Positions 2,060-62,058 of a stretch of 64,000 nt of DNA are shown piece after piece. This DNA comes from Candidatus Bathyarchaeia archaeon (lineage in GTDB: Archaea; Thermoproteota; Bathyarchaeia; Bathyarchaeales; Bathycorpusculaceae). The translations under genes were made by a program, and so were the position numbers. The stretch lies in NCBI GenBank assembly GCA_038728085.1, contig JAVYUU010000003.1, forward strand, positions 62,001 through 126,000. Direction: 5' to 3'. The notes under the pieces are model-generated. The model was not told the DNA's origin. It ran no database searches and saw only the letters and a program-made list of their open reading frames with translations. The first letter of the stretch is position 1. The number at the start of each line of letters is the position of its first letter.

Positions 2060-2174
2060 TACGATTTATGACTTATTATAAAGCATTACAAGTTAACTCC
2101 ACCACATCATTTCAAACCCGGAAACAACGGCGGAAACGGCAAACCCTTAAATTTTGAAGACAAAAATATCAAGC

Positions 2175-2951
2175 GTGGTTGAAGGACCAACAGCCAAAGC
2201 ATATGCAATAAAAATCACAACAAACTTCCAAGACGAAACCATCACAGAAATCTACACAAAATCCAAAAGAGTCTTCATACCCCTAGAGAAAATCCTTGGA
2301 AAAAGATTTCTGGAGGCAGATTCCCTAGGCAAAAACATCCTCCTATTCTTTAACGGTGATACAGCCATCAGAATCCACCTGATGATGTTCGGAGCCATCC
2401 ACATCTACGAAATAAACGAACCGCTCCAAAAACCAAAAGAAAGAGTGAGACTGATGGCAACAGGCGAAAAGAAGAAGCTCGTTGTCTACAATGCACCCAT
2501 CATCGAAGTGGACTACAGAGATAAAATTCTACAGAGGTTGAAGGGGGAGCTTGGCCCAGATCCTTTAAGCGGCGAATGTGACAAAGCAAAAGCCATCAGA
2601 AACATCATGAATCACCCAGACCAGAAAATTGGCGTAGCCTTACTAAACCAATCCGTCATAGCAGGCATCGGCAACATTTTAAGGAATGAAATTCTCTTCA
2701 GAGCTAAAGTGCATCCGGATAGAACCATCGCAAGCCTTTCCCTCCAAGAAATCGAGAAGATTGTCGATTACACTGAACAGATAAGCAGGGAATTTTTAAA
2801 CCGCAAGCTTCAAGGCAAGGGAATCAAAGATCTACTTTCCGTCTACAACAGGTTCAGCGGTTTCTGCATGGTTTGCGGGCACCCAATCAAATTTTACATG
2901 CAGAAGCCCATTAACAGGAAAACTTTTGTCTGCGAGAATTGCCAGAAGTAG
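2175..2951 (+). CDS. Fpg/Nei-family DNA glycosylase with N-terminal Val
   Basis: This is a base-excision-repair bifunctional DNA glycosylase/AP lyase of about 258 residues. I place the start at GTG 2175, because that gives MVEGPTAKAYA, aligning with the invariant N-terminal MPEGP of Fpg/Nei. A TTG seven codons upstream (2154) would bury the nucleophile. Other family features are SLGKNILLFF (conserved Lys), RIHLMMFG, the helix-two-turn-helix KIGVALLNQSVIAGIGN (about 155-172), and a C-terminal zinc finger with CMVCG and CENCQ, including the conserved Arg in INRKTF. The usual Pro nucleophile is Val, as in the vertebrate NEIL3 protein. It stands alone, divergent from the winged-helix gene. Confidence 0.85.
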   Translation: MVEGPTAKAYAIKITTNFQDETITEIYTKSKRVFIPLEKILGKRFLEADSLGKNILLFFNGDTAIRIHLMMFGAIHIYEINEPLQKPKERVRLMATGEKKKLVVYNAPIIEVDYRDKILQRLKGELGPDPLSGECDKAKAIRNIMNHPDQKIGVALLNQSVIAGIGNILRNEILFRAKVHPDRTIASLSLQEIEKIVDYTEQISREFLNRKLQGKGIKDLLSVYNRFSGFCMVCGHPIKFYMQKPINRKTFVCENCQK

Positions 2952-44246: not shown

Positions 44247-45005
44247 CTAAAGGAAAAGTTCTTTTTCTCGAGGTCTAACAAGCTCTGTCGCTTTGGCATC
44301 TTCAGACTTTATGAAACTGTATCCCCGTATAATAGCCGCTGGAATTCCCTCATCCGCCTGTCCTATAACAAGTTCGGCTGCTGAAGCCAACTCATCTGCA
44401 ACCGCTGTCTGTTTAACCCGCAAGACATAGCCAAACAAGTCCTTTTCGCCTCTCCGGTCCCTTATGGGCTTGATGCCAGAAACGCCGATCGCAACGTTTA
44501 CTTCACCCTCCCTTAACGGGCGCCCCTGAGTGTCAGAAATTATCACGGCAACCTCACAACCAGTTAACCGTTTAATCTCAAGCCTAATCCTCCCAGCAGA
44601 GGAGTCAGGATCTTCTGGCAGAAGCGCCACGCATCTCTCTCCGGGTACATTGGACTTGTCCACCCCAGAGTTGGCACAAACAAGGCCGTGCCGGGTTTCG
44701 GTTATTATTTTGCCGTCAAGCATCCTCCGGATACTTTTAGCCTCCCTAAGCACAACCTCGACCAAAGCAGGATCTTTATCATAAAGCTCAGCGATGTTTC
44801 TTGCAAGGACAGAAGGCGTAACTTCGTCTAGGTTTATGACACGTCCCTCAGCTCGGGACACAACTATGTGGGTTATAACTATTATGTCGCCGTCTTGTAT
44901 GGGGGTGCCCTGTCTCTCTGCGGCTTTGCATATAAGTTCGGCAAGGTTGTCTCCGGCTTTTACTATAGGTATACCCTTAATCCCAATTATTTGGATAATG
45001 CCCAT
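44247..45005 (-). CDS. cofE: Coenzyme F420-0:L-glutamate ligase (paralogue 1)
   Basis: About 252 residues from ATG 45005. GTG 45014 is also open, but a GTATAAAC box at 45031-45038 predicts a near-leaderless start here. CofE adds the gamma-linked glutamates to F420-0 using GTP. Features are VKAGDNLAELICKAAE, GDIIVITHIVVSRAEGRVINL, CANSGVDKSNVPGERCVALLPEDPDSSAGRIRLEI (in parts), VAVIISDTQGRPLREGEVNVAIGVSGIKPI and RGEKDLFGYVLRVKQTAVADELASAAELVIGQA (in parts). A second copy is at 61285-62058. Confidence 0.92.
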   Translation of the reverse strand: MGIIQIIGIKGIPIVKAGDNLAELICKAAERQGTPIQDGDIIVITHIVVSRAEGRVINLDEVTPSVLARNIAELYDKDPALVEVVLREAKSIRRMLDGKIITETRHGLVCANSGVDKSNVPGERCVALLPEDPDSSAGRIRLEIKRLTGCEVAVIISDTQGRPLREGEVNVAIGVSGIKPIRDRRGEKDLFGYVLRVKQTAVADELASAAELVIGQADEGIPAAIIRGYSFIKSEDAKATELVRPREKELFL

Positions 45006-45130
45006 GGTTGCCACGAAGGCTGTTTATTGTGTTTATACTTCTAACGGTTTCGCTTCAATGTTGTTTTGGCAGTTGGTTGCGAAAATTTTTAATTCAAAGC
45101 GCCTCTCTTCTTAGGGCGAGATGATGTTTG

Positions 45131-61284: not shown

Positions 61285-62058
61285 TTGAAGAGCTTCACAG
61301 CCATAGCCCTCGAAAACTTCCCATTAATAAAGCCCGGAGACAACTTGGCGAAGATAGTGGTGGAAACGGCGGAGAGAAACGGCGTGAAAATTGAGGATGG
61401 CGACATTATCGTTGTTGCCCAAAAGGTTGTTTCGAAGGCTGAAGGCCGTGTTGTGAGGCTTAGAGAAATTTTCCCCTCAGAGAAAGCCAAAGAAATAGCG
61501 GGGAAAACTGGCAGAAGCCCGAGGCTTGTGGAGCTAATTTTAAGGGAGACACGTAAAATTTTGAAGATTTCTCCTGAAACATTAATTGTGGAGGATACTC
61601 GTGGACTGGTTTGTATTAATGCTGGGATAGACAAGTCGAACATCGAAGGCGAGGATTCCTTCGCCCTTTTGCCAGAGAACCCTGATGCTTCGGCGGCTAG
61701 GTTCCGCATGGAAATTAAGAGGTTGACAGGCAGGAATGTGGCGGTGATTATATGCGACACATACAGCCGCCCATTTAGGCGGGGACAGGTAAACTTCGCC
61801 ATCGGCGTTTCAGGGATTAAGCCTCTTAAAGATTACAGAGGTAAACGGGACCTTTTCGGTTACATCTTGAGGGTTAAAAATGTGGCGGTGGTTGACGAAA
61901 TCGCCGCTGCAGCTGAATTGTTGATGGGTCAAGCAACTGAAGCCACTCCAGTTGTGGTTTTCAAGGGCTTACAAAATATTGTTGAATACTGCGAAAATGC
62001 AAGCATAAAAGAGTTAGAGATCACCCGTGAAGAGGACCTCTTCAGAGACGCCCTATGA
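61285..62058 (+). CDS. cofE: Coenzyme F420-0:L-glutamate ligase (paralogue 2)
   Basis: 257 residues. TTG 61285 follows GAGGTGG. All CofE features are present: IKPGDNLAKIVVETAERNGVKIEDGDIIVVAQKVVSKAEGRVVRL (in parts), CINAGIDKSNIEGEDSFALLPENPDASAARFRMEI (in parts), VAVIICDTYSRPFRRGQVNFAIGVSGIKPL and RGKRDLFGYILRVKNVAVVDEIAAAAELLMGQA (in parts). It resembles the copy at 44247-45005 over its full length. Possible roles are a different number of glutamates added, or a ligase for another cofactor. Neighbours give no help. Confidence 0.9.
   Translation: MKSFTAIALENFPLIKPGDNLAKIVVETAERNGVKIEDGDIIVVAQKVVSKAEGRVVRLREIFPSEKAKEIAGKTGRSPRLVELILRETRKILKISPETLIVEDTRGLVCINAGIDKSNIEGEDSFALLPENPDASAARFRMEIKRLTGRNVAVIICDTYSRPFRRGQVNFAIGVSGIKPLKDYRGKRDLFGYILRVKNVAVVDEIAAAAELLMGQATEATPVVVFKGLQNIVEYCENASIKELEITREEDLFRDAL

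Follow-up and report, generated by a model that had tools for sequence, protein, structure and literature searches.

A conserved archaeal family of predicted Nei-branch DNA glycosylases with valine or threonine in place of the N-terminal proline

In the literature consulted, NEIL3 is described as the one departure from the proline nucleophile that Fpg/Nei DNA glycosylases use, and searches of the literature gave no archaeal counterpart of its non-proline N-terminus. A gene in the genome sequence of a Candidatus Bathyarchaeia archaeon (assembly GCA_038728085.1) raises the question of whether such counterparts exist and, if so, what they do and how they relate to NEIL3. The window analysed is 64,000 nucleotides of contig JAVYUU010000003.1, from position 62,001 to 126,000. 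The gene, at 2175 to 2951 on the forward strand of the window with its stop codon at 2949 to 2951, encodes a 258 amino acid Fpg/Nei-family DNA glycosylase beginning MVEGPTAKAYA. The original prediction was that valine replaces the catalytic proline here, as in NEIL3.

With translation from the GTG at 2175 to 2177, the following codons are GTT, GAA, GGA and CCA, and the valine encoded by GTT (2178 to 2180) is the presumed nucleophile. The reading frame is open upstream as far as TTG 2154, and Val2 would be an artefact if translation really began there or if the sequence contained an error. A start at TTG 2154 would add 7 residues that are absent from every orthologue. All orthologues with a readable N-terminus align from residue 1, with Val2 or Thr2, and an in-frame stop is present 15 nt or less upstream of the equivalent start in L003, L004, L025 and L053 to L060. 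Most have ATG at the position of the window's GTG, with GTG in L025, L050, L051 and L061 and TTG in L062. Five near orthologues (56 to 70% identity), found among 61 related genomes, have ATG-GT(T/C) exactly at the GTG-GTT of the window. The TATA-like box CTTAAA (2146 to 2151, forward strand) has its midpoint 26.5 nt ahead of GTG 2175, which fits the expectation for a leaderless archaeal transcript; in 15 of the 20 other Val2 members the best or tied-best match to TTTAWA, counting ties, is centred at -21 to -30. Based on the orthologue starts, the upstream in-frame stops and the TATA-like box, translation is assigned to GTG 2175, as originally chosen, and Val2 is read as genuine. It is almost inconceivable that Val2 is an artefact of the start codon or of sequencing.

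Homologues were sought in the 61 related genomes, in 163 genomes of the order, in 398 across the phylum and in further classes. Homologues with proline had been named as evidence that would count against the original prediction, and none were identified within the family: among the 24 members whose N-terminus is readable, position 2 is valine in 21 and threonine in 3. The start M-V-E-G-[PL]-[TS]-A-[KR]-A is shared by eight more orthologues in the order of the window's genome and by 12 in other families of the phylum, and three deep members (L062, L135 and L136) begin MTEGPQA. The members are drawn from many independent assemblies. By these alignments the gene belongs to a conserved archaeal family, within the Thermoproteota, that has valine or threonine and never proline as its first residue after the methionine. 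The family is patchy, being found in 10 of the 163 genomes of the order, one of these copies being a fragment. It is present as a single copy in the window's genome and absent from the three other genomes of the genus that were sampled. One orthologue, L006 (1501 to 2223, reverse strand), begins MVEGL and has a C-terminus that, beyond the first of the zinc cysteines, diverges in a manner suggestive of frameshift or decay; it has lost the end of its zinc finger and is not among the 20 aligned members.

The protein has both domains of the superfamily, with the Fpg/Nei N-terminal domain (PF01149) at 33.1 bits against a cut-off of 25.5 and the helix-two-turn-helix domain (PF06831, residues 126 to 209, encoded at 2550 to 2801) at 68.3 bits against 34.7. 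The zf-FPG_IleRS model scores 13.1, below its cut-off of 21.3, yet the four zinc cysteines are present (C231, C234, C253 and C256) and, with the finger arginine Arg248, are encoded at 2865 to 2942. Glu3 (2181 to 2183), the conserved acidic residue of Fpg/Nei, is invariant across the 20 aligned members, as are Lys53 of the GKN motif (2331 to 2333; the counterpart of Nei2 Lys51 and NEIL3 Lys81), Asn167 in the motif G(I/V)GNILRNEILF, Arg248 and the four cysteines. The lysine, helix-two-turn-helix and zinc finger are thus intact, as originally described. The absence of proline after Met1 does not bar the protein from the superfamily, since NEIL3, which lacks it too, is counted as a member. The void-filling arginine and phenylalanine of Fpg are missing, as they are in NEIL3. 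Met70-Met71-Phe72 (2382 to 2390) are present and align with Gln69-Leu70-Tyr71 of E. coli Nei, which are presumably the void-filling residues of that enzyme. The ratio dN/dS is 0.09 to 0.15 in five close pairs, indicating that the gene is under selection; together with the invariant residues, it is in this sense that the earlier view of the gene as active is borne out. A structure prediction made from three sequences only gave a pLDDT of 52.8 and a pTM of 0.41, too low for a dependable model.

A profile built from six sequences of the family, searched against solved structures, matched NEIL3 best (85.5 bits), with MutM at 71.5 and E. coli Nei at 62.8. The NCBIfam equivalog cut-offs were all missed, at 88.5 against 252 for PRK10445 (Nei), 102.3 against 203.3 for TIGR00577 (Fpg) and 80.7 against 400 for NF040775 (Nei2), and the substrate therefore cannot be read from a family name. 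The nearest prokaryotic relative of NEIL3 found is another protein, L063 (1501 to 2214, reverse strand) in the Thermoproteota genome G441, at 103 to 106 bits, or about 104 where the next best stands at 56; it is the sole such protein among 81 genomes of its class. Across the 398 genomes, a profile of mouse NEIL3 and L063 gave 81 to 103 bits for the Val2/Thr2 family, against 52 or less for archaeal Fpg. With NEIL3 as the query, L063 (105.6 bits) is followed by the whole family at 48 to 67, and all bacterial rows are at 44 or less. Three scans of viral contigs identified no relative of either the family or L063. Relatives in phages and plasmids are at only 22 to 36% identity, and those inspected are ordinary Fpg, Nei and Nei2 with Pro2.

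Trees were made from 42 to 44 sequences, in which NEIL3 was represented by the mouse protein alone, NEIL2 by that of the opossum alone, and the bacteria by plasmid and phage records. Without NEIL2, the family forms a clade with NEIL3 and L063 with support of 99/96, which is kept at 99/94 and 95/86 when the first 12 residues are removed. With NEIL2 included, the family is sister to NEIL2, NEIL3 and L063 together (96/96), and it does not form a group with the single NEIL3 that excludes the single NEIL2. In AU tests of the tree without NEIL2, alternative placements were not rejected (p-AU 0.09 to 0.15), and the placement of NEIL3 floats once both L063 and the N-terminus are removed. The family stands apart from the Fpg clade also in trees lacking the N-terminal columns, and the phylogeny places it on the Nei side of the superfamily.

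It is possible to propose a chemistry for such an enzyme. Valine is small enough for methionine aminopeptidase, so exposure of the Val2 amine is likely. The aminopeptidase would remove Met1, and the primary amine of Val2 would then replace the proline imino group as the nucleophile, with Glu3 and Lys53 completing the active site. The substrates would be oxidised bases, for the most part pyrimidines and hydantoins, and the AP lyase would be weak or uncoupled from the glycosylase. Studies of relatives bear upon these steps. Met1 removal is required for active NEIL3, according to a published report. Human NEIL3 is chiefly monofunctional, and the V2P change brings back coupled strand incision (PMC5727206). 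In Nei2, the AP lyase depends on Pro2 and Lys51, while the excision of 5-hydroxyuracil depends on Glu3 and Lys51 and not on Pro2 (PMC11323726). As the residues for excision are all present in the archaeal protein and the residue for an efficient lyase is missing, a glycosylase with a weak or uncoupled lyase is to be expected. The family is therefore probably one of working Nei-branch glycosylases, with Val2 in the main clade and Thr2 in the deepest members in place of proline, that excise oxidised bases with little or uncoupled AP lyase activity. True endonuclease IV is encoded in just 6 of the 24 carrier genomes and was not found in the window's own; this co-occurrence is uninformative as to whether an enzyme with little lyase activity has a partner of its own.

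Two other readings of the substitution have to be weighed against this one. Proline is otherwise nearly universal at this position, and its replacement could have abolished catalysis and left a damage-binding remnant. There is something of a precedent in the same phylum, where the Fpg-like group L019 to L022, which begins MS[VI]ELPEA with one extra N-terminal residue and has asparagine for the catalytic lysine (SRGNV for SRGKW), has lost the usual N-terminus and the lysine; these are probably non-catalytic paralogues. Such loss is not seen in the Val2/Thr2 family, where the catalytic and zinc-binding residues are invariant and dN/dS is low, and NEIL3 demonstrates that glycosylase activity is possible with Val2. 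A remnant is thus very unlikely. The other reading is that the protein is an archaeal NEIL3 proper, its Val2 coming from a common ancestor and its role being in crosslink unhooking or on single-stranded or forked DNA. The two share an identical MVEGP start, but the deepest archaeal members have Thr2. NEIL3 is the top match among the solved structures and ranks L063 and then the family above all bacteria as a query, yet it has C-terminal RanBP/GRF fingers that are missing from the archaeal protein, which ends at residue 258 after the Cys4 finger, and a single methionine in the void-filling loop where the family retains M70-M71-F72. The well-supported joint clade, which does not depend upon the N-terminus, is countered by the grouping of NEIL2, with its Pro2, with NEIL3 and L063 to the exclusion of the archaeal family, by the mobility of NEIL3 once L063 and the N-terminus are removed, and by the alternative placements that the AU tests did not reject. 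On balance this reading is unlikely.

By its domain content, with no C-terminal fingers, and by the tree that includes NEIL2, the archaeal Val2 protein falls outside NEIL3, and its M-M-F loop is Nei-like. Given Pro2 in NEIL2 and Thr2 in the deepest members of the archaeal family, a parallel or convergent gain of valine in the archaea and in NEIL3 is simpler than inheritance and is probably what occurred. The phrase 'as in NEIL3' stands as a description, the two being near by profile and tree, but their common valine probably arose independently in each. It would be a bolder proposal that the loss of proline is ancestral, in an archaeal lineage ancestral to NEIL3, such that the Val2/Thr2 enzymes and L063 are the prokaryotic roots, NEIL2 regained its proline, and the uncoupled chemistry and crosslink unhooking of NEIL3 are shared; this is rather improbable. 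A strict single-strand preference is not predicted for the archaeal enzyme from its sequence, since M70-M71-F72 is nearer to the loop of E. coli Nei, likewise of three residues, than to the single methionine of NEIL3. The role in crosslink or single-strand repair that had been suggested would be an extrapolation only.

The surroundings of the gene are variable. No conserved operon partner is present: across 23 loci the most frequent neighbour of the glycosylase gene recurs in 5 and looks like a B-family polymerase, and no operon with an lhr helicase gene, such as characterizes Nei2, is seen. By eye, a B-family DNA polymerase-like gene is nearby in five of the loci (L113, L114, L117, L121 and L132) and a photolyase-like gene is within three genes in three (L121, L122 and L133), too few for functional inference. 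Ribosomal protein genes are downstream in the window, from 4567. Elsewhere in the window, 44247 to 45014 (reverse strand) and 61285 to 62058 (forward strand) are a related pair, 16 kb apart, that by eye resemble paralogues of the coenzyme F420 gamma-glutamyl ligase CofE.

Other departures from the N-terminal proline were seen. The Nei-like proteins L064 and L097 (genomes G526 and G547) begin MSEGPE and are outside the Val2/Thr2 family in trees; their Ser2 is, from the sequence, another loss of the proline. A Bathyarchaeia Fpg-type protein, L013, begins MEFPEL, compared with MPELPE in its relatives, and has no Pro2. The Val2/Thr2 family itself points to repeated replacement of proline within the Fpg/Nei superfamily, and annotation that relies on an MPE start would consequently miss such genes. 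The oddity of NEIL3 now has archaeal counterparts, and the Val2/Thr2 family provides small natural enzymes with which to ask how a primary-amine N-terminus affects the coupling of glycosylase and lyase.

Compared with known systems, the family adds a new and conserved archaeal variant to the Nei branch and is not a new kind of system. It shares with the NEIL3 glycosylase domain (mouse 3w0f; 8b9n and 7z5a) the valine at the nucleophile position of the MVEGP start, the retained lysine and glutamate, a Nei-type helix-two-turn-helix with GNI(I/L)(K/R)NE and a Cys4 finger with its arginine; it lacks the large N-lobe insertion of NEIL3 and is not its specific sister once NEIL2 is included. NEIL2 (opossum 6vji) is of the same Nei branch and larger clade and has the GNIIKNE motif, but differs in its Pro2 and extended N-lobe loop. 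L063 adjoins the family in trees, but begins M-E-G-P, with Met1 itself at the nucleophile position. The mycobacterial and actinobacterial Nei2 are similarly compact Nei-branch enzymes of 250 to 270 amino acids with a Cys4 finger, and rank with the nearest relatives that tblastn gave from bacteria, yet they have Pro2 (MPEGD) and an lhr-nei2 operon and form a separate clade. E. coli-type Nei (endonuclease VIII) shares the Y-[NS]-A-x-x-[IV]-E strand, the three-residue loop at the position of M70-M71-F72 and the GNxLRxEIL motif, and differs in having Pro2 where the archaeal protein has Val2.
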